A stretch of DNA of 64,000 nucleotides from the NCBI RefSeq assembly GCF_020889685.1, contig NZ_JACMYO010000013.1:1-64000 (forward strand), given 5' to 3'. Positions within the stretch are counted from its first letter, which is position 1. Every line of letters starts with the position of its first letter. The position numbers and the translations under genes were made by a program. The notes under the pieces were generated by a model, which worked only from the letters and a program-made list of their open reading frames with translations, made no database searches and was not told the origin of the DNA. Shown here one piece after another: positions 1,115 to 61,638 of the stretch. Source of the stretch: Bradyrhizobium oropedii. GTDB taxonomy: Bacteria > Pseudomonadota > Alphaproteobacteria > Rhizobiales > Xanthobacteraceae.

Positions 1115-1196
1115 CAGCACCGACCGCTCCTAGATGGACCGGTGTGAGCGCGATCGGGCGCATTCGGCGCTTCGCTCACAAGATGGAGACGACCCC

Positions 1197-2207
1197 ATGA
1201 ATTTCATCAAAGCAATCGTCGCTGCCGGCTTGGTCGCCGCGTCGACGTCGGCCTTCGCTGCCGATATTACCGGCGCAGGCGCAACGTTTCCGTTCCCGAT
1301 CTATTCGAAGTGGGCTGACGCCTACAAGAAGGACACCGGCAATGGCCTGAACTATCAGTCGATCGGTTCGGGCGCCGGCATCAAGCAGATCCAGGCCAAG
1401 ACCGTGACCTTCGGTGCGACTGACGCGCCGCTCAAGGCCGAGCAGCTCGAGAAGGACGGCCTCGTCCAGTGGCCGATGGTGATGGGCGCGATCGTTCCGG
1501 TCGTGAACGTCGAAGGCGTGAAGTCGGGCGATCTCGTGCTCTCCGGCGAAGTGCTCGGCGACATCTATCTCGGCAAGATCACCAAGTGGAACGACGCGGC
1601 GATCGCCAAGCTCAATCCGAAGCTGACCCTGCCGGCCGATGCGATCACCGTCGTCCGCCGCTCGGATGGTTCGGGCACCACCTTCAACTTCACCGACTAC
1701 CTCTCCAAGTCAAACGCCGACTGGAAGTCCAAGGTCGGTTCCGGCACCGCGGTCGAATGGCCGGTCGGCGTCGGCGCCAAGGGCAACGAAGGCGTTGCCG
1801 GCAACATCAGCCAGACCAAGAACGCGATCGGCTATGTCGAATACGCCTACGCCAAGCAGAACAAGCTGACCTACACCGCGCTGGTCAACAAAGCCGGCAA
1901 GACCGTGCAGCCGACCATTGCCGCCTTCCAGGCTGCTGCGTCGAATGCCGACTGGTCCAAGGCCCCCGGCTATTACGTGATCCTGACCGACCAGCCGGGC
2001 GAAGCCTCCTGGCCGATCACCGCGGCGACCTTCATCCTGATGCACAAGGACGCGACCGACAAGGCGGCCTCGCAGGAAGCGCTCAAGTTCTTCAAGTACG
2101 CCTTCGAGAAGGGTGGCAAGGCGGCCGAAGAGCTCGACTACATCCCGATGCCGGACTCGGTCGTCAAGTTGATCGAGAAGACCTGGTCTTCGGACATCAA
2201 GAGCTAA
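1197..2207 (+). CDS. pstS: Periplasmic phosphate-binding protein PstS
   Basis: Substrate-binding protein of the PstSCAB high-affinity phosphate importer. The product is 336 residues. A Sec signal peptide occupies about residues 1-23 ([11 protein letters not shown]...AFAAD). The mature start [17 protein letters not shown] and the phosphate-contact motif RSDGSGTTF are typical of PstS. The ATG at 1197 was chosen over an in-frame ATG at 1134 because it begins the signal peptide and has GGAGA just upstream. A strong hairpin after the stop separates it from pstC, in keeping with PstS being made in excess over the membrane subunits. Expression should be PhoB-dependent. Confidence 0.96.
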
Positions 2208-2227
2208 GTCCAACGCTTCGAATAAGG

Positions 2228-2256
2228 CCTGTGCCGCCTCCCAAGGGCGGCACAGG
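2228..2256 (+). terminator. Intercistronic hairpin between pstS and pstC
   Basis: CCTGTGCCGCC (2228-2238) pairs perfectly with GGCGGCACAGG (2246-2256) around a 7-base loop. No T-run follows, so it is more likely a processing or stability element, or a partial terminator, that allows more pstS than pstCAB message. The sequence that follows, to about 2345, is a degraded palindromic intergenic repeat. Confidence 0.6.
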
Positions 2257-2438
2257 TCGAGCGACCAAGACCGGGCCCCATCACCGCGGCAAGATGCGCG
2301 GCAAGATACGTGGATTGGGCCCGGGGTTCGCGTCCCGGGAGGCGCAACCGGAACGACGCCCGGCCTCATGCGTCAGTGAAGATCGCTTCGGGGGCGTAGC
2401 GGTTGGTGCAGCTTTCAAATAAAAAAGAGGGAATTGGC

Positions 2439-3437
2439 GTGGCAGACATGGCTGTTCAGAGCGATGTGATGGAAGCCGCCGGACCTTACGATCGCGCCAA
2501 GGCCCTCAGCGCCTTCAAGCTGGGTGACCTCACCTTCTATTGGATCACCCGCATCTCGGCGATTTCGGTTCTGTTGATCCTCGGCGGCATCATCCTGTCG
2601 CTGATCGCCGGCGCCTGGCCGGCGATGAAGGAATACGGCTTCGCCTTCCTCTGGACGCAGCGCTGGGCGCCCTCGGCCGATCCGCCGGTGCTCGGCGCGC
2701 TCGGCCCGATCTACGGCACGCTGATCACCTCGGTCATCGCGATGATGGTTGCCATTCCGGTCGGCATCGGTATCGCCGTGTTCCTCACCGAGCTCTGCCC
2801 GCAGATGCTGCGCCGCCCGATCGGCATCGCCATCGAGCTGCTCGCCGGCATCCCCTCGATCATCTACGGCATGTGGGGCTTCTTCGTGCTGGGCCCGTTC
2901 CTCGCCAACACGTTCCAGCCCTTCATGATCAGGCTGTTCGAAGGCGTTCCGGTGCTGGGTGCGGTGTTCGCAGGGCCGCCGTCCTATCTCAGCCTGTTCA
3001 ACGCCGCGCTGATCCTCGCCATCATGGTGCTGCCCTTCATCACCGCGATCTCGGTGGACGTGTTCAAGACCGTGCCGCCGGTGCTCAAGGAAGCCGCCTA
3101 CGGCATGGGCTGCACCACCTGGGAAGTGGTCAGCAACGTTGTGATCCCCTACACCCGCGTCGGCGTGATCGGCGGCATCATGCTGGCGCTCGGCCGCGCA
3201 CTCGGTGAGACGATGGCGGTGACCTTCATCATCGGCAACTCGTTCCGTATCTCGTCGTCGATCTTCGCGCCGGGCACCACGATCTCGGCGGCGATCGCCT
3301 CCGAATTCGCCGAGAGCGACGGCCTGCACCAGTCCGGCCTGATCCTGCTCGGCCTCCTGCTGTTCGTGCTGACCTTCTTCGTGCTCGCCGGCGCGCGGCT
3401 GATGCTGATGCGGCTTGAAACGAAAGCGGGGAAATAG
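2439..3437 (+). CDS. pstC: Phosphate ABC transporter permease PstC
   Basis: One of the two membrane subunits of the Pst importer, about 332 residues with six predicted membrane spans. The first is near [20 protein letters not shown]. The ABC permease EAA-type loop ([20 protein letters not shown]) lies in the C-terminal third, followed by [15 protein letters not shown], which is typical of PstC. The start is taken as GTG at 2439 because GAGGGA lies 6 bases upstream; ATG at 2448 and TTG at 2403 are in frame and possible. The pstA start codon follows its stop by 4 bases, so the two are co-translated. Confidence 0.94.
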
Positions 3438-4287: not shown

Positions 4288-5102
4288 CCGAGCTTTCCGT
4301 CTCCACGACCGTCGCGAGCCACGTTCCCCAGGTTCCACTGCCGGAAGCGCCGCCGAAAGTCACGGTGCGCAACCTCAACTTCTATTACGGCGAGCACCAC
4401 GCGCTGAAGAACATCAATTTGACGCTAGGCACCAACCGCGTCACGGCGTTCATCGGCCCGTCGGGCTGCGGCAAGTCGACCCTGCTGCGCATCTTCAACC
4501 GGATGTATGATCTCTATCCGGGCCAGCGCGCGGTCGGCCAGCTGATGCTGGACCAGACCAACATTCTCGATCCCAAGCTCGACCTCAATCTGCTGCGCGC
4601 GCGGGTCGGCATGGTGTTCCAGAAGCCGACGCCGTTCCCGATGACGATCTACGAGAACATCGCCTTCGGCATCCGCCTCTACGAGAAGATCTCGAAGTCC
4701 GAGATGGACGACCGGGTCGAGAAGGCGCTGCGCGGCGGCGCGCTGTGGAACGAGGTCAAGGACAAGCTGAACGCCTCCGGCCTGTCGCTCTCCGGCGGCC
4801 AGCAGCAGCGCCTGTGCATCGCGCGCACCGTGGCGGTGCGTCCCGAAGTGATCCTGTTCGACGAGCCGTGCTCGGCGCTCGATCCGATCTCGACCGCCAA
4901 GGTCGAGGAGCTGATCCAGGAGCTCTCCGAGGACTACACGATCGCGATCGTCACCCACAACATGCAGCAGGCGGCGCGCGTCTCCGACAAGACCGCCTTC
5001 ATGTATCTCGGTGAGCTGATCGAGTTCGACGACACCAACAAGATCTTCACCTCGCCGAGCGATCGACGCACCCAGGACTACATCACCGGCCGGTTCGGCT
5101 AG
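4284..5102 (+). CDS. pstB: Phosphate ABC transporter ATPase PstB
   Basis: Cytoplasmic ATPase that drives phosphate import (272 residues). The Walker A motif is GPSGCGKST, the signature is [16 protein letters not shown], Walker B is [13 protein letters not shown], and the switch histidine is in IVTHNM. The ATG at 4284 overlaps the pstA stop. In-frame codons further upstream are inside pstA and were rejected. Downstream, phoU is separated by about 97 bases that hold a palindromic repeat. Confidence 0.97.
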
Positions 5103-5103
5103 C

Positions 5104-5148
5104 GCATGATCCGCAAAAGTGGGCACCGGTTTTTCGATCGGATCGTGC
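5104..5148. repeat. 45-bp palindromic intergenic repeat, AAGTGGG-ACCGGTT core family
   Basis: Ends GCATGATCCG (5104-5113) and CGGATCGTGC (5139-5148) are inverted repeats with one G.T-type mismatch. They flank the core AAGTGGGCACCGGTTTTTCG. The same core, with different palindromic ends, occurs at 34126-34170 and, inverted, at 53832-53885. From memory this resembles a repeat abundant between genes of Bradyrhizobium and Rhodopseudomonas. It sits between pstB and phoU and could fold in the transcript. Confidence 0.7.
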
Positions 5149-5199
5149 GAAACTGAGGACACCAAATCATGATCCCCGGGATCATGAGGGAGACAAGCG

Positions 5200-5916
5200 A
5201 TGGCTTCTGAACATACCGCCAAGGCATTCGACAGCGACCTGCAGGAGTTGACCCGCCTGGTCGCCGAGATGGGCGGCCTCGTCGAGCGGATGATCACCGA
5301 GTCGGTCGACGCGCTGATCCGTCGCGACGTCGCGCTCGGCAAGCGCGTGGTCGCCGCCGACATCGAGATCGACAATCTGCAGCGCGTCATCGAAGAGCGC
5401 GCGGTGCTGACGATCGCCCGCCGCCAGCCGATGGCGATCGACCTGCGCGAAATCGTCAGCGCGATGCGCGTCGCCACCGACCTCGAGCGGATCGGCGACC
5501 TCGCCAAGAACATGGGCAAGCGCGTCGCGGCGCTGGAGAGCGATTTCCAGCCGCTGAAGCTGATCCGCGGCCTGGAGCACATGACCGACCTCGTGCTGTC
5601 GCAGGTCAAGTCGGTGCTCGACGCCTATGCCGCGCACGATCTGCCGGCGGCGATGAACGTCTGGAAGGGCGACGAGGAAGTCGATGCGATCTGCACCTCG
5701 CTGTTTCGCGAGCTGCTCACCTACATGATGGAGGATCCGCGCAACATCTCGTTCTGCATCCATCTGATGTTCTGCGCCAAGAATATCGAGCGGATCGGCG
5801 ATCACGCCACCAATATCGCCGAGACCGTGTTCTACATGATCGAAGGCCAGCAGATCACCGACAAGCGCCCGAAGGGCGACATGACCAACTTTGCCACCAC
5901 GGTGCCGGGTACCTGA
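5200..5916 (+). CDS. phoU: Phosphate signalling regulator PhoU
   Basis: PhoU links the state of the Pst transporter to the PhoR kinase and keeps the Pho regulon off when phosphate is plentiful. The product (238 residues) has the two tandem PhoU helical-bundle domains. Each contains the metal-binding pattern: ATDLERIGDLAKNM in the first and CAKNIERIGDHATNIAE in the second. The ATG at 5200 follows GAGGGAGACAAGCG. It lies between pstB and phoB on the same strand. Confidence 0.95.
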   Translation: MASEHTAKAFDSDLQELTRLVAEMGGLVERMITESVDALIRRDVALGKRVVAADIEIDNLQRVIEERAVLTIARRQPMAIDLREIVSAMRVATDLERIGDLAKNMGKRVAALESDFQPLKLIRGLEHMTDLVLSQVKSVLDAYAAHDLPAAMNVWKGDEEVDAICTSLFRELLTYMMEDPRNISFCIHLMFCAKNIERIGDHATNIAETVFYMIEGQQITDKRPKGDMTNFATTVPGT

Positions 5917-6044
5917 CATGGTCCGCGCGTGCGGAAATGGATTGTCTTCGCGACAAATCGTTTCCGCGGGGATCATGCCGACGGAAGTAAGCGTTTCGGT
6001 TTGCGTCTGGGCAACGGATCACCACAGAGAAAGAACTTAAACCG

Positions 6045-6755
6045 ATGAGCGCACGCATTCTGGTAGTCGAAGACGAGGAAGCGCTGACGACGCTGTTGCG
6101 CTACAACCTCGATGCGGAAGGCTACGATGTCGAGACGGTGGGGCGCGGCGACGATGCCGACACCCGCCTGAAGGAGCGCGTTCCCGACCTCGTGGTACTC
6201 GACTGGATGCTGCCGGGCCTGTCCGGCATCGAGCTGTGCCGCCGGCTGCGGGCGCGGCCCGAGACCAAGCAGCTTCCGATCATCATGCTGACCGCGCGCG
6301 GCGAAGAGAGCGAGCGCGTGCGCGGGCTCGCTACCGGCGCCGACGATTACATCGTCAAGCCGTTCTCGGTGCCGGAACTGCTGGCGCGGGTGAAGGGCCT
6401 GTTGCGCCGCGCGAGCCCGGAACGGCTTGCGACCGTGCTGACCTATGGCGACATCGAGCTCGACCGCGAGAAGCGCCGCGTGGCGCGCTCGGGCCGTCCG
6501 ATCGATCTCGGGCCGACCGAGTATCGCCTGCTCGAATTCTTCCTCGAGCATCCCGGCCGCGTGTTCAGCCGCGAGCAGCTGCTCGACAGCGTCTGGGGCC
6601 GCGACATCTATATCGATGAACGCACCGTCGACGTGCATATCGGCCGGCTGCGCAAGCTGCTCAATCCGGGCCGCGAGCAGGATCCGATCCGCACCGTGCG
6701 CGGCGCCGGCTATGCGCTCGACGACCGCTTCGCTAAGGCCGAGCCGCAGCCGTAA
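6045..6755 (+). CDS. phoB: Phosphate regulon response regulator PhoB
   Basis: OmpR-family response regulator (236 residues). The receiver domain has acidic residues VEDEE, phospho-acceptor Asp53 in VVLDWMLPG, and Lys105 in DDYIVKPFS. A winged-helix DNA-binding domain fills about residues 130-228 (LGPTEYRLLEFF, RTVDVHIGRLRKLL, VRGAGYAL). It should bind the Pho box at 1081 before pstS. It is the last gene of the cluster. A bidirectional hairpin terminator at 6919-6946 follows after a palindromic repeat. Confidence 0.95.
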   Translation: MSARILVVEDEEALTTLLRYNLDAEGYDVETVGRGDDADTRLKERVPDLVVLDWMLPGLSGIELCRRLRARPETKQLPIIMLTARGEESERVRGLATGADDYIVKPFSVPELLARVKGLLRRASPERLATVLTYGDIELDREKRRVARSGRPIDLGPTEYRLLEFFLEHPGRVFSREQLLDSVWGRDIYIDERTVDVHIGRLRKLLNPGREQDPIRTVRGAGYALDDRFAKAEPQP

Positions 6756-22987: not shown

Positions 22988-23096
22988 ACCGTCATCCTGA
23001 GGTGCGAGCCTCTTCGGCGAGCCTCGAAGGATGCACGGCCCGGCTGGTGGCCGTCGATTCTTCGAGGCTCGCTCCGCTCGCACCTCAGGATGACGG
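22988..23096. repeat. Palindromic intergenic repeat, CATCCTGAGGTGCGAGC family (copy 1)
   Basis: Outer arms CGTCATCCTGAGGTGCGAGC and GCTCGCACCTCAGGATGACG are near-perfect inverts. Inner arms GAGCCTCGAAGGATGCA and TTCTTCGAGGCTCGC also pair. A second, scrambled copy is at 59448-59602. It fills most of the gap before glpK. Confidence 0.8.
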
Positions 23097-55447: not shown

Positions 55448-57037
55448 ATGGAGGCGCTGGTGGCCGTTCCTCGCCTTCGATCGATAGGTCCGGGTTGTCG
55501 TATATCGCAGCGAAGCGACTTTTTGTCGGACCGCTACTTTGCCGTCGACACAGGGAAGCTTGCTCACCAATATGGGAACCGGACCTCCACCAACCCAAGC
55601 GTGTGCCACGTGTCCCGTGATCCATGGCGACAATACGGATACAGACTTGACTCCTATGAAGGCAGCCTCAAGCACCTGACGTATTCAGGAGCGCTGAAGC
55701 CTCAAGAGCAGAGTGACGCATTCGGATTTTTCTCGGTTCGAACAGACCCGTCGGCCCTCAGCCTCGCCGAGGCCTCTGGCATTCTTTCCGAGCAATCTTT
55801 GGGCCCGCCGCACGGATACGCATTGCTCAATCCCGTTCCAATACCTGAGTTTCCGCAGGCTCCGGAGCGTCCTAAAACGGTGCCAGGCCAATACGAACTG
55901 TACATTGTAGAGCGCGCCAGCAAAGCAGAAGCGAAGGCCCAACAGCTTTTTGAGCAGTTCCTTGATCAGTATAAGAGAGAGGCTACACAACTCGCTCAGC
56001 TCAAACAGGCTTGCGAGCAAGGCGATGACGCCGCGTTGCGGTTGCTCATGTCAATCTCACACGTACGGCACCATCTGCATCCGTTGCTAATGTTGGCCTT
56101 CGACGTCGAGATCGACCAGCCATCTCGCGTAATACTTACGACTGTGCGCGTGCCCGACTTCAAGCAGCTTCCCATCGTCAAGCCAAAGGGAAGCAAGTCT
56201 TGGAATTCCGATTGGACTTTGGTGTCCGCGGCGGAGCGTAAGCGAGCAACGGAAACTCTGCTCTACGCACTTTGCCTGCGCGCGGCCTATCTCGTTGCCA
56301 TGTCAGATGAGGGGGCCTGGTTCGATACCGTTGCTATTAACATCGCTCAAAGCTGGTTCGATTCTGCGACCGGCGCGCCGCAAGAAGGTATTATCGCGAG
56401 CCTTCAGGCGTCGAAAGCTGACCTCGTCGCACTCCAACTCCATAAGGTCGACCCGAAGGCCTGCTTTCGGCATCTCAAAGGCATTTCGACGCCATCGGTT
56501 GAGTCGGTCGCTCCAGTTCGGCCCATCTTCGTTATGAGCAAAGAGGATGACCGCATCGTCGAAAACAAAGATGTCGCAGAGACGCTGGAAGCGGAAACCA
56601 ATCTTGCCGCCATGCCTTGGGAGGATTTTGAGCATCTCGTTAGTCAATTGTTCGAGTGGGAGTTTGGTAAGAACGGTGTGGAGGTAAAAGTTACCCGCGC
56701 ATCTCGTGATCGCGGCGTGGACGCAATCATGTTCGATCCGGATCCCTTGCGCGGGGGAAAATATGTTCTCCAAGCAAAACGCTACACGCGGCCGGTTGAT
56801 GTCGCCGCCGTTCGGGACCTGTACGGTACTGTTATGAACGAGGGTGCCAATCGTGGGATCATCGTCACGACGAGTACGTATGGGCCGGACGCTTATGAGT
56901 TCGCTAAGGACAAGCCGCTTTCCCTCGTGGATGGTCAGCACCTCATTGCGATGCTTCGAAAGCACGGACGGAATTTTCGGATCAATCTGGCCGAGGCGCG
57001 CAAGGCAATGGAGGCGGAGGCCCGGTCAGCGAGTTAG
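55448..57037 (+). CDS. Mrr-type restriction endonuclease-like protein
   Basis: A 529-residue protein. The last about 150 residues form an Mrr_cat/PD-(D/E)XK nuclease domain: WEDFEHLVSQLFEWEFG, DRGVDAIMFDP (catalytic Asp), YVLQAKRYTRPVD (Q-x-K active-site variant), and GIIVTTSTYGPDAYEFAKD. The N-terminal about 370 residues match no domain I know, with a helical middle (YKREATQLAQLKQACEQGDD). Mrr enzymes cut methylated or foreign DNA. Base composition is visibly lower in GC than the flanks. The start at 55448 is uncertain, as the first 50 residues are poorly gene-like. It ends next to tRNA-Thr, as acquired genes often do. Confidence 0.82.
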   Translation: MEALVAVPRLRSIGPGCRISQRSDFLSDRYFAVDTGKLAHQYGNRTSTNPSVCHVSRDPWRQYGYRLDSYEGSLKHLTYSGALKPQEQSDAFGFFSVRTDPSALSLAEASGILSEQSLGPPHGYALLNPVPIPEFPQAPERPKTVPGQYELYIVERASKAEAKAQQLFEQFLDQYKREATQLAQLKQACEQGDDAALRLLMSISHVRHHLHPLLMLAFDVEIDQPSRVILTTVRVPDFKQLPIVKPKGSKSWNSDWTLVSAAERKRATETLLYALCLRAAYLVAMSDEGAWFDTVAINIAQSWFDSATGAPQEGIIASLQASKADLVALQLHKVDPKACFRHLKGISTPSVESVAPVRPIFVMSKEDDRIVENKDVAETLEAETNLAAMPWEDFEHLVSQLFEWEFGKNGVEVKVTRASRDRGVDAIMFDPDPLRGGKYVLQAKRYTRPVDVAAVRDLYGTVMNEGANRGIIVTTSTYGPDAYEFAKDKPLSLVDGQHLIAMLRKHGRNFRINLAEARKAMEAEARSAS

Positions 57038-57081: not shown

Positions 57082-57156
57082 TGGTGCTGCCAGACAGGAT
57101 TGAACTGTCGACCTCTCCATTACCAATGGAGTGCTCTACCACTGAGCTACGGCAGC
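57082..57156 (-). tRNA. tRNA-Thr(GGT)
   Basis: On the minus strand the gene starts GCTGCCGTAGCTCAGTGGTA. The anticodon stem is CTCCA/TGGAG with loop TTGGTAA (anticodon GGT), the T arm is GACAGTTCAATCCTGTC, and CCA is encoded. The acceptor stem GCTGCCG pairs with TGGCAGC (one G.T pair). Length is 75 bases including CCA. Its 3' end faces the Mrr-type gene, a typical site of genomic-island insertion. Confidence 0.96.
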
Positions 57157-57728: not shown

Positions 57729-59426
57729 ATGGCTGTAGATGAGACGATGATCGATCGGCTGAACGCAACCGCGTACGCCTTCCCGCGCCACGAGCAGACC
57801 TTTCCGACCCTGACAGCGCATGAGATCGAGCGGATGCGCCGTTTCGGCGAGGCGCGCGCGTACAAGGACGGCGAGGCGCTGTTCGAGACCGGCACGCCCG
57901 GTCCCGGCATGTTCGTGGTGCTGTCGGGCAGTGTCGCGATCACCCAGCGCGACGGCCTTGGCCATGTCACGCCGATCATCGACCAGGGGCCGGGGCAATT
58001 CCTCGCCGAGATCGGCCAGCTCTCCGGCCGCCCCGCGCTGGTCGACGGCCATGCCGATGGGGCTGTCGAGACATTGCTGCTGCCGCCGGAGCGGCTGCGC
58101 GCGCTGCTGGTCGCCGAGGCCGACCTCGGCGAGCGCATCATGCGTGCGCTGATCCTGCGCCGCGTCAGCCTGATCCAGGGCGGCGCCGGCGGACCGGTGC
58201 TGATCGGCTCGGCGTCGGTCGGCAACATGGCGCCGCTGCAAAATTTCCTGGCGCGCAACGGCCAGCCGCATCACGTGATCGATCCCGAGAGCGACAAGGA
58301 TGCCGCCGACCTCGTCGCGCGCTACTCGCCGACGCGCGCCGAGCTGCCGCTGGTGGTCTGTCCTGATGGCACGGTGCTGCGCAATCCGTCCGAGACCGCG
58401 CTTGCGATGGCGCTCGGCATGATCGGCAACAGCGCGCATGAGAAGCTCTACGACGTCGCCGTGGTCGGCAGCGGCCCGGCCGGGCTCGCCACCGCGGTCT
58501 ATGCGGCCTCCGAAGGGCTGTCGGTTGCGGTGTTCGATTCCCGGGCCTTCGGCGGCCAGGCCGGCGCCAGCATGCGGATCGAAAACTATCTGGGCTTCCC
58601 GACCGGCATCTCGGGCCAGGCGCTGGCCGGCCGCGCCTTCAACCAGGCACAGAAATTCGGCGCCGAGATGCTGATCCCGGTCTCGATCAAATCGCTCGAC
58701 TGCTCGAAGACGTCGGGTGCGTTCGCGCTCGCCACCGGATGCGGGCACACGCTGCGCGCCAGGTCGGTCGTGGTCGCAAGCGGCGCGCGCTATCGCCGGC
58801 CGGTGATCGACAATCTCGAGAGCTACGAAGGCCGCGGCGTCTGGTACTGGGCCTCCCCGATCGAGGCGCGGCTTTGCGCCCAGCAGGATGTCGTGCTGGT
58901 CGGCGGCGGCAACTCCGCGGGGCAGGCGGCGGTGTACCTGTCGGCGCATGCCCGCAAGGTCAACATGATGATCCGCGGCGGCGGGCTTGGCGCCAGCATG
59001 TCGCGCTACCTGATCGAGCGCATCGAGGCGACGCCGAACATCGAATTGATGTTCAACACCGAGGTGATCGGGCTCGACGGCGCCGAGACGCTGGAGCGCG
59101 TGCGCTGGCGCAGCCGGCTCGCGCCCGACGAGTTCACCATGGATATCCGCAATCTCTTCTTGTTCGTCGGCGCCGATCCGGCGACCGGCTGGCTCGAGGG
59201 CTGCGGGGTGCAGGTCGACCGCGGCGGTTTCGTGATGACCGGCGTGCAGAACGGCGAGGGTACGCCCGCCGTGCCGCTGCTCGAGACCACGGTGCCCGGC
59301 GTGTTCGCCGTCGGTGACGTTCGCTCCGGCTCGGTCAAGCGCGTCGGCGGCGCGATCGGCGAGGGCGCGCAGGTCGTCGCCGCCCTGCACGGCTATCTCG
59401 CCGATGCCGGCAGCCCGTCGCTGTAG
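57729..59426 (+). CDS. cNMP-binding / thioredoxin-like / TrxR-like fusion flavoprotein
   Basis: A 565-residue cytosolic protein with three parts. Residues about 30-150: cyclic-nucleotide-binding (CAP_ED) fold (FGEARAYKDGEALFETGTPGPGMFVVLSG; GPGQFLAEIGQLSGRPALV). Residues about 160-230: a thioredoxin/glutaredoxin-like domain (MAPLQNFLARNGQPHHVID) without CXXC. Residues about 245-560: TrxR-like FAD/NADPH reductase (VAVVGSGPAGLATAVYAASEGL, GGQAGASMRIENYLGFP, VLVGGGNSAGQAA, VFAVGDVR). Where TrxR has the redox CXXC, this protein has YWASPIEA, so it cannot do TrxR chemistry. It may transfer electrons to another partner under cNMP control. The UBP-finger gene follows on the same strand. Confidence 0.87.
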   Translation: MAVDETMIDRLNATAYAFPRHEQTFPTLTAHEIERMRRFGEARAYKDGEALFETGTPGPGMFVVLSGSVAITQRDGLGHVTPIIDQGPGQFLAEIGQLSGRPALVDGHADGAVETLLLPPERLRALLVAEADLGERIMRALILRRVSLIQGGAGGPVLIGSASVGNMAPLQNFLARNGQPHHVIDPESDKDAADLVARYSPTRAELPLVVCPDGTVLRNPSETALAMALGMIGNSAHEKLYDVAVVGSGPAGLATAVYAASEGLSVAVFDSRAFGGQAGASMRIENYLGFPTGISGQALAGRAFNQAQKFGAEMLIPVSIKSLDCSKTSGAFALATGCGHTLRARSVVVASGARYRRPVIDNLESYEGRGVWYWASPIEARLCAQQDVVLVGGGNSAGQAAVYLSAHARKVNMMIRGGGLGASMSRYLIERIEATPNIELMFNTEVIGLDGAETLERVRWRSRLAPDEFTMDIRNLFLFVGADPATGWLEGCGVQVDRGGFVMTGVQNGEGTPAVPLLETTVPGVFAVGDVRSGSVKRVGGAIGEGAQVVAALHGYLADAGSPSL

Positions 59427-59447
59427 GCAGGTTCATCAGGGCCTACC

Positions 59448-59602
59448 CCGTCATCCCCGCGCAAAGGCGCAGCCTTTGTCGCTGGAGGAGCCGCGAAGCG
59501 GCGTCTCGAAGGATGAATCGGCCACGGTGCGGGCCGTGCATCCTTCGAGGCTCGCCCAGCGGCGCAATTGCGCCGCAAGGCTCGCACCTCAGGATGACGG
59601 TT
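59448..59602. repeat. Palindromic intergenic repeat, CATCCTGAGGTGCGAGC family (copy 2, hybrid)
   Basis: The right half ends GGCTCGCACCTCAGGATGAC as in the copy at 22988. The left half starts CCGTCATCCCCGCGCAAAGG, which belongs to a different family (compare 60002-60050). It looks like one repeat inserted into or recombined with another. Confidence 0.7.
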
Positions 59603-59636
59603 CAAAAAGAGCCCACTTCAGATACGAGGTCGCAAA

Positions 59637-59945
59637 ATGTCAAAGGGCTGCACCCATATCGCCGGCATCCAGGATGTCACGCCGAGTGCGCTCGGCTGCG
59701 AGGAATGCCTGAAGAGCGGCAGCCGCTGGTTGCATCTGCGGATCTGTCGGACCTGCGGCCATGTCGGTTGCTGCGACGACTCGCCGAACCGGCATGCGAC
59801 GGCGCATTTCCACGCCACCGGCCATCCCGTGATCGAGGGTTACGATCCGCCGGAAGGCTGGGGCTGGTGCCATGTCGACGAGGTGCTGTTCGACCTGTCG
59901 AAGCGCAAGACGCCGCACAACGGGCCGATCCCGCGCTACTACTGA
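59637..59945 (+). CDS. UBP-type zinc-finger protein
   Basis: A 102-residue protein consisting of one ZnF-UBP domain. Zinc ligands: CTHI, CEECL, CRTCGHVGCCDDSPNRHATAHFHATGHP. Trp in GWGWCHVDEVLFDL marks the C-terminal part. In eukaryotes this finger binds the free C terminus of ubiquitin. In bacteria its ligand is unknown. It follows the cNMP/TrxR-like fusion gene on the same strand, and I recall the two occurring side by side in other genomes. A repeat (59448-59602) separates them, so co-transcription is unproven. ATG 59637. Confidence 0.9.
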   Translation: MSKGCTHIAGIQDVTPSALGCEECLKSGSRWLHLRICRTCGHVGCCDDSPNRHATAHFHATGHPVIEGYDPPEGWGWCHVDEVLFDLSKRKTPHNGPIPRYY

Positions 59946-60813: not shown

Positions 60814-61638
60814 ATGCCCACCATCACCACCAAAGACGGCGTCGAGATCTTCTACAAGGATTGGGGTTCGGGCCAGCCGATCGTGTTCAGCCATGGCTGG
60901 CCGCTGTCGTCGGACGATTGGGACGCCCAGATGCTGTTCTTCCTCAATCACGGCTTCCGCGTCGTCGCCCATGATCGCCGCGGCCATGGCCGCTCCGCCC
61001 AGGTGGCCGACGGTCATGACATGGACCACTATGCCGACGACCTCGCGGCCGTCACCACGCATCTCGATCTGAAGAATGCCGTTCACGTCGGTCATTCCAC
61101 CGGCGGCGGAGAGGTGGTGCATTACATCGCGCGCCACGGCGAGAGCCGGGTCGCGAAGGCCGCCATCATCGCGGCCGTGCCGCCCTTGATGGTGCAGACA
61201 GCGGCCAATCCCGGCGGCCTGCCGAAGTCGGTGTTCGACGGCCTGCAGGCGCAGGTCGCAGCCAACCGTTCGCAATTCTACCGCGATCTGCCGGCCGGGC
61301 CGTTCTACGGCTACAACCGGCCCGGCGCAAAACCGTCGGAAGCGGTGATCCAGAACTGGTGGCGGCAGGGCATGATGGGTGGCGCGAAAGCGCATTACGA
61401 CGGCATCGTCGCCTTTTCGCAGACCGACTTCACCGAGGATCTGAAGAAGATCAACGTGCCGGTGCTGGTGATGCATGGCGACGACGACCAGATCGTGCCC
61501 TATGCCGATTCCGGTCCGCTGTCGGCCAAGCTTCTCAAGAACGGCACACTGAAGACCTACAAGGGCTTTCCGCACGGCATGCCGACCACCGAAGCCGAGA
61601 CGATCAACAAGGATCTGCTGGCGTTTATCAAGGGCTGA
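60814..61638 (+). CDS. Alpha/beta hydrolase (non-heme haloperoxidase/esterase type)
   Basis: A 274-residue cytosolic hydrolase. Oxyanion region [12 protein letters not shown]; nucleophile elbow GHSTGGGEV (Ser); acid DDQIVPY; catalytic His in [36 protein letters not shown] is typical of the chloroperoxidase F-type group. Members are esterases, perhydrolases or lactonases. GAGGAG lies 8 bases before ATG 60814. Alone in its transcription unit. Confidence 0.92.

Follow-up and report, generated by a model that had tools for sequence, protein, structure and literature searches.

A thioredoxin reductase-like flavoprotein without the CXXC motif is linked to a stand-alone UBP zinc finger in Bradyrhizobium and other bacteria

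Introduction

The closest described relatives of the protein reported here are AhpF and the low-Mr thioredoxin reductase (TrxR) TrxB, with which it shares a flavin adenine dinucleotide (FAD)/NADPH module and a thioredoxin-type fold ahead of the reductase. The protein, a flavoprotein of 565 residues, is encoded at 57729..59426 (+ strand) in the first 64,000 nucleotides of Bradyrhizobium oropedii contig NZ_JACMYO010000013.1, the whole stretch of DNA that was analysed (the window, from a genome of 9.04 Mb). The next gene (59637..59945, + strand) encodes a stand-alone UBP zinc finger of 102 residues. In contrast to AhpF and TrxB, the flavoprotein has no CXXC in its reductase or in its glutaredoxin (Grx)-like domain, carries an extra input domain, appears to have another domain arrangement and scores far under the equivalog cut-offs for these enzymes. 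The finger has the fold and presumed zinc ligands of the UBP fingers of HDAC6, USP5, USP16 and Rhodopseudomonas RPA1320 (Protein Data Bank (PDB) entry 2IDA). However, ubiquitin-binding UBP fingers have Gly-Arg at the site that receives the tail carboxylate, whereas the bacterial finger has Cys-Asp there and is either stand-alone or antiporter-fused, with a flavoprotein partner.

The Kef systems offer a further parallel. KefF is described in PMC10224563 as an oxidoreductase and an activating ancillary subunit needed for full KefC activation. In KefF–KefC and KefG–KefB the oxidoreductase gene adjoins that of an antiporter containing a KTN (TrkA_N) domain, an arrangement resembled by two of the loci below (L184 and L186). 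The KefF subunit, however, is soluble, has a size of ~20 kDa and acts as a quinone reductase, whereas the flavoprotein is TrxR-type and of ~60 kDa; here the antiporter bears a UBP finger, and it is missing from the window's own locus. The Kef parallel is, in our view, one of gene arrangement and does not extend to protein family.

Neither protein family is new, nor are the structure of the finger and the names assigned automatically to the two proteins. Relatives are called 'cyclic nucleotide-binding domain-containing thioredoxin-disulfide reductase' and 'UBP-type zinc finger domain-containing protein' in RefSeq, and the first name implies cyclic nucleotide (cNMP) binding and disulfide reduction that the residues do not support. 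Text searches of the open-access literature gave nothing on the flavoprotein–finger pair among the matches listed. Prokaryotic treble clefs were reportedly treated by Burroughs, Iyer and Aravind in 2011 (Mol Biosyst), who may already describe flavoprotein neighbours of the finger, and for this reason we claim no priority.

A preliminary description of the window had read the first gene as a fusion of a cyclic nucleotide-binding (CNB) domain, a thioredoxin-like domain without CXXC and a TrxR-type reductase, and had noted the lone finger next to it. Domain coordinates, Pfam scores and a WASP motif at the TrxR CXXC site confirm the fusion, and a zf-UBP match of 42.8 bits (cut-off 22.7) and orthology to 2IDA confirm the finger. 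The description had also taken the two genes as linked, which we found to hold across several phyla, and had suggested second-messenger gating and a C-terminal-peptide ligand, which in their canonical forms are not supported by the residues concerned.

Results and discussion

The finger is rarely found in a genome without the flavoprotein

The flavoprotein–finger link is real, and the finger seldom occurs in a genome that lacks the flavoprotein. Of 398 evenly drawn Pseudomonadota genomes, with the flavoprotein counted to E 1e-60, 16 had the finger and 45 the flavoprotein, and 15 of the 16 finger genomes had both. The finger was adjacent to the flavoprotein in 13 of these 16, lay 5.3 kb off in one, was elsewhere in the genome in one and stood alone in one. 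Among 111 Deinococcota genomes (flavoprotein counted to E 1e-50), the finger was found in 6 and the flavoprotein in 14, all 6 finger genomes being among the 14. Hypergeometric tails for co-occurrence were 8.8e-15 in Pseudomonadota and 1.3e-6 in Deinococcota, with shared ancestry not removed. A set of 60 relatives held 20 fingers in 17 genomes, every one of which also had the flavoprotein; 13 of the 20 fingers were adjacent to it, 2 were within 6 kb and 5 were apart.

The same link was seen in individual loci, for which we took the best 80 of 590 confirmed in a search of genome contigs, a set skewed to close relatives. The flavoprotein, whole or in part, was present in 55 of the 80 (broken or cut in L010 and L067) and lay within 600 bp of the finger in 51: the flavoprotein came first in 40 and the finger in 6, with 2 pairs divergent and 3 convergent. 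For 22 of the remaining 25 loci, the genome carried the flavoprotein elsewhere, each time at E 1.4e-89 or better; ordinary TrxR-like proteins score ~1e-34 or weaker. Adjacency spans Pseudomonadota, Actinomycetota, Deinococcota and Gemmatimonadota (Gemmatirosa), the order and strand of the two genes vary between genomes, and in some the reading frames overlap.

Fingers are fused to antiporters and encoded in a chaperone operon

In two loci the finger forms the C terminus of a fusion with Na_H_Exchanger and TrkA_N domains: L081 (Phycisphaerae, 4336-6261) and L184 (Deinococcota, 1177-3297). By similarity, five of nine Deinococcota fingers are antiporter fusions, and two Deinococcus plasmids have annotated antiporters carrying the finger. 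The fusion of L184 ends 53 bp upstream of a receiver-type flavoprotein gene, and that of L186 lies 1.3-1.5 kb before another such gene. The finger of L185 stands alone, and its frame shares 1 bp with that of the flavoprotein, assuming the first GTG start. The proximity of an antiporter-fused finger to a flavoprotein gene is best explained if the finger joins flavoprotein to effector.

On four actinobacterial plasmids, two from Rhodococcus and one each from Nocardia and Streptomyces (L151, L157, L160, L198), the genes run dnaK-grpE-dnaJ-cbpM-clpB-trxA-finger-flavoprotein. Chaperone genes also occur in Deinococcota, with clpB 1.7 kb from the antiporter-finger gene in L192 and dnaK 2.5 kb from the flavoprotein gene in L195. 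The thioredoxin encoded before the Rhodococcus finger has the motif WATWCAPC; its N terminus is zinc-ribbon-like, at 25.9 bits just under the 27.1 cut-off.

A proposed redox-signalling module

We propose that the pair is a redox-signalling module, in which the finger docks a sensor-controlled, dithiol-free NADPH flavoprotein to stress effectors, in the manner of KefF and KefC; we hold the chances of this to be about even. Judging by its fold, the flavoprotein would use NADPH and FAD as thioredoxin reductase and AhpF do, but it has lost the dithiols that would hand electrons to thioredoxin. Its N-terminal slot takes interchangeable inputs, a degenerate CNB domain here and a receiver or nothing elsewhere. 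The finger would be a dedicated accessory subunit, bound to the Grx-like/TrxR-like core and linking this core to stress effectors; in other bacteria these would include Kef-type antiporters and the chaperone/disaggregase set. Contact between finger and flavoprotein, the docking and which component controls which are inferred, as is whatever the pair does in Bradyrhizobium, where neither antiporter nor chaperone adjoins the window pair.

Several observations weigh against this proposal. The flavoprotein is without a finger in 30 of the 45 Pseudomonadota genomes that have it. Fingers stand apart from the flavoprotein in 25 of the 80 loci and in 5 of the 20 cases among relatives (Bradyrhizobium relatives and other members of the order), and there was no flavoprotein match in one of the 16 Pseudomonadota finger genomes or in three metagenome-assembled genomes among the 25 with finger-only loci. 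The fetched stretches of three of the five fusions (L190-L192) and of the two Deinococcus plasmids contained no flavoprotein. Plasmid fingers of Oscillatoria, Streptomyces NBC_01558 and Variovorax had no annotated flavoprotein alongside, in a gene table that is incomplete; the Variovorax finger is flanked by a LysR and a VOC gene. The chaperone operon of Streptomyces NBC_01001 has no finger gene between trxA and the flavoprotein. Relatives of Rhodococcus DnaK, GrpE, DnaJ, CbpM or ClpB were found in none of records L001-L081 (81 in all, mostly flanks of 6 kb), and the chaperone link is thus unseen in the window's own phylum. Last, no natural gene fusing finger and flavoprotein was met. Several fingers lie in long open frames, of which six were scanned (L056, L079, L081, L027, L038, L061) and L011 and L013, among others, were not; five of the six gave zf-UBP only, read as chance open frames, and the sixth, L081, is the antiporter fusion.

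In a broader version, a single family of sensor-controlled, dithiol-free NADPH flavoproteins would control unrelated stress effectors (Kef-type antiporters and the ClpB/DnaK disaggregase set), with the UBP finger of bacteria as the adaptor common to all; this is possible but doubtful. If true, it would bear on the origin of eukaryotic ubiquitin-tail readers, and the UBP fold would have had a role in redox or stress docking before, or beside, its role with ubiquitin. Independently of it, a finger family whose solved structure (2IDA) is filed as a hypothetical protein gains a partner and hence a testable job.

The reductase core has lost its dithiol

The TrxR-like FAD/NADPH module (residues 241-546; 58449..59366, + strand) matched Pyr_redox_2 at 106 bits (cut-off 26.1) and superposed on 3CTY with a Z of 35.1 over 304 residues at a root-mean-square deviation (rmsd) of 2.6, so that an FAD/NADPH-binding fold of TrxR type is present. 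The TrxR CXXC site is W374-A-S-P377 in the window. We aligned two sets of relatives: 54 CNB-type sequences, which include the window and the apparently frameshifted L020 but neither L010 nor L067, whose open frames of 354 and 234 aa mark them as broken or cut; and a second set of 47, including receiver-type proteins, with L183 excluded by length and the window and two others common to both sets. No CXXC was found at the TrxR site in any of the 54 or the 47. Conserved in its vicinity were E379 (54 of 54 and 47 of 47), whose position is roughly that of the TrxR acid beside the second cysteine, C383 (52 of 54 and 39 of 47) and, in the CNB-type set, W374 (45 of 54). The NCBIfam equivalogs scored below their cut-offs, TrxR at 202.7 against 343.45 and AhpF at 142.3 against 502.9. 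For lack of the CXXC we rejected a true thioredoxin reductase, and 'thioredoxin-disulfide reductase', like 'cyclic nucleotide-binding', is probably wrong as a name for the family.

Between the CNB domain and the reductase lies a middle domain (residues 152-236; 58182..58436, + strand) for which a scan of the full protein gave no Pfam family above cut-off. A profile of 31 members matched mycobacterial glutaredoxin 2LQO weakly (E 0.0012, residues 17-77 of 92), with SecA second (E 0.043); scanned singly, one of the 31 matched Glutaredoxin (E 0.0037) and two matched SecA (best 0.0063). In the AlphaFold2 model of the flavoprotein (mean predicted local distance difference test 85.2, predicted template modelling (TM) score 0.79), the domain runs strand-helix-strand-helix-strand-strand-helix, the thioredoxin element order. 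The window's copy has a single cysteine, C211, and with moderate confidence we call the domain Grx-like without a cysteine pair. Pairing of C211 with C383 was considered and rejected, with C211 absent in 10 of 54 and C383 in 8 of 47.

The top three Foldseek matches in the PDB were full-length AhpF (438-453 columns), at an rmsd of 12.6-16.8, which means that the domain arrangement is different or not fixed by the model. The model is closer to the flavin-reducing than to the flavin-oxidising form of the Lactococcus enzyme (TM score by target length 0.87 for 5MH4 and 0.67 for 5MJK), a comparison that concerns the model only. In-frame stops were flagged in G015, G025, G031, G034, G279, G407, G456 and G474; in G025, G279 and G407 the frames are open over 538-547 aa, and the flagged stop is therefore the gene's own end.

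In nine loci (L037, L042, L050, L051, L059, L070, L075, L076 and L077) the flavoprotein is of a subtype in which Ala replaces W374; eight of these also lack C211. Covariation of a finger tail (GPIPR) with the Trp and Ala subtypes was discarded, since by eye both subtypes have the tail.

The loss of the dithiol is also the starting point of the main rival to docking by the finger. Here the finger would itself be a redox partner or switch, with C46, beside the presumed zinc ligand C45, replacing the lost CXXC as the group that the flavoprotein reduces or oxidises. C46 is Cys in all 81 fingers aligned (the window's and 80 others), and the fingers read from Actinomycetota, cyanobacteria and Gemmatimonadota have it too, as do those fused to antiporters; USP16 has Gly at this position. 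A thioredoxin is moreover encoded upstream of the finger in Rhodococcus and in Rhodomicrobium L036, where a relative 39% identical to the Rhodococcus protein (5525-5953) ends 47 bp before the finger match, with no flavoprotein near. However, C46 might instead bind zinc or have a structural role, and a flavoprotein that so often has no finger in its genome would often have nothing to reduce. We consider this explanation fairly unlikely.

The finger has lost the arginine that reads ubiquitin tails

The finger matched its solved orthologue 2IDA at 211 bits (Z 18.5 over 101 residues) and HDAC6 at a Z of 10.3 over 89-90 residues. Invariant in the 81 fingers are C5, H7, C21, C24, W31, H33, R35, C37, C40, C45, C46, D47, S49, H53, H57 and H63. 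The Gly-Arg of USP16 aligns with C46-D47, and from its aligned Arg to the Tyr of the WCYV motif is a distance of 33 residues, as expected for R84 and Y117. In PMC10424181, USP16 R84A/Y117A and HDAC6 R1155A/Y1184A serve as binding-deficient controls. All 81 fingers have Asp at the position of HDAC6 R1155 and USP16 R84. Given this replacement, we rejected canonical reading of ubiquitin or GG tails, and the C-terminal-peptide ligand that the preliminary description had suggested is not supported in its canonical form. The Tyr site is occupied by Y in 66 of the 81, F in 13 and H in one, the window's own finger, with a gap in one. Some variation was seen beyond the 81: the L187 finger has Cys-Glu in place of Cys-Asp, and the two actinobacterial chaperone-operon fingers read lack the N-terminal Cys-x-His.

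The aromatic pocket is largely retained (Trp31 in 81, Trp77 in 78 and Tyr/Phe79 in 79 of the 81), and because of this some ligand or interface for the finger is possible. One such function would be to read the free C termini of damaged or tagged proteins, much as HDAC6 reads the ubiquitin tails on aggregates, and so to recruit redox and chaperone proteins. The HDAC6 fold, the pocket and the actinobacterial chaperone operon are consistent with this, but the invariant Asp and the window's His oppose it, and we regard it as distinctly unlikely.

Adjacency argues against mere co-inheritance

The two genes might instead travel together as cargo of stress islands or megaplasmids without acting together. 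Plasmid copies are many (the finger in 87 plasmid records, the flavoprotein in 129), and the finger-only loci would fit such cargo. Adjacency in four arrangements and in four phyla, with overlapping frames in some, argues against it, and we find co-inheritance alone very unlikely.

The CNB domain retains the fold but not the canonical ligand site

The CNB (CAP_ED) domain of the flavoprotein (residues 18-150; 57780..58178, + strand) gave a Pfam cNMP_binding match of 44.2 bits at residues 43-127 (cut-off 27.5), so that the CNB fold is present, and its profile matched PKA/PKG and CRP-type chains. It has in common with CRP- and PKA-type domains the cassette Glu (E94 in the window), retained in 52 of the 54 CNB-type sequences. 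The Arg of the cNMP cassette is the phosphate-binding residue. In a gapless alignment to PKA chains, its position was occupied by S in 27, A in 18 (A103 in the window), L in 4, V in 3, M in 1 and I in 1, and by R in none of the 54; nor was R found in any of the 36 rows of the second set with a residue in this column or, by eye, in the Rhodococcus and Streptomyces flavoproteins. Given this absence, 'cyclic-nucleotide domain' appears true of the fold only, with the canonical ligand site lost. Loss of the phosphate-binding residues had been named by the preliminary description as a finding that would refute its proposal of second-messenger gating, which we do not retain. The structure search returned no row for the CNB part alone, which was not folded separately.

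The N-terminal input slot is interchangeable. A receiver domain fills it in L137, L138, L139 and the Deinococcota loci read; the L184 flavoprotein, the sole receiver-type one scanned, matched Response_reg at 48.8 bits, and the acidic residues, phospho-acceptor Asp and Lys were seen by eye in receiver-type relatives. A Burkholderia relative adjoining a finger has 423 aa and no input domain, and L136 is similar in appearance. Behind the CNB domain, a linker motif, RALILRR, has R139, L143, R144 and R145 invariant in 44 of 44.

Gating of NADPH oxidation by cAMP or cGMP bound to this domain is the least probable of the explanations weighed here: the fold is clear and the Glu is kept, but the Arg is missing throughout and the domain is swapped or absent in relatives, although another Arg, two positions before the missing one and conserved in 48 of 54, would allow an unusual binding mode. 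With residues for binding both cNMP and ubiquitin tails missing, the pair probably does something other than bind either.

The window locus and its neighbours

The window genes are 210 bp apart, and the intergenic stretch (59427..59636, no strand) contains a palindromic repeat resembling repetitive extragenic palindromic (REP) elements. This stretch is missing from the close relative L002, where the gap is 8 bp. The genome contains the repeat core, ATCCTTCGAGNCTCGC, 62 times as an exact match (control 0), and the palindrome also occurs at 23017-23072 in the window. Because the repeat recurs throughout the genome and the gap in L002 is so short, the window pair has the appearance of a compact operon into which a repeat has come. 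Related repeats, judged by eye, lie between the genes in L003, L004 and L007. The nearest named finger loci, among the 80, are from Bradyrhizobium, at 98% protein identity.

Just upstream of the pair are a gene resembling Mrr_cat restriction endonucleases (55448-57037, + strand; 105.7 bits) and, between that gene and the pair, tRNA-Thr (ggt) (57082-57156, - strand). Downstream lies an alpha/beta hydrolase gene (Abhydrolase_1; 60814-61638, + strand; 98.8 bits), relatives of which occur in 15 of the 81 records; ten of the 15 are Bradyrhizobium-type loci, the window among them, and Skermanella, Sphingomonas, Stakelama and Variovorax are also represented. Other recurrences near the pair in Alpha- and Betaproteobacteria, given as raw counts for common families, were Dps (7 of 81 records), histidine kinase (7) and response regulators (7). 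An FAD-dependent monooxygenase-like gene lies near the finger in L028, L153 and L199 (Variovorax, Burkholderia and Rhizobium).

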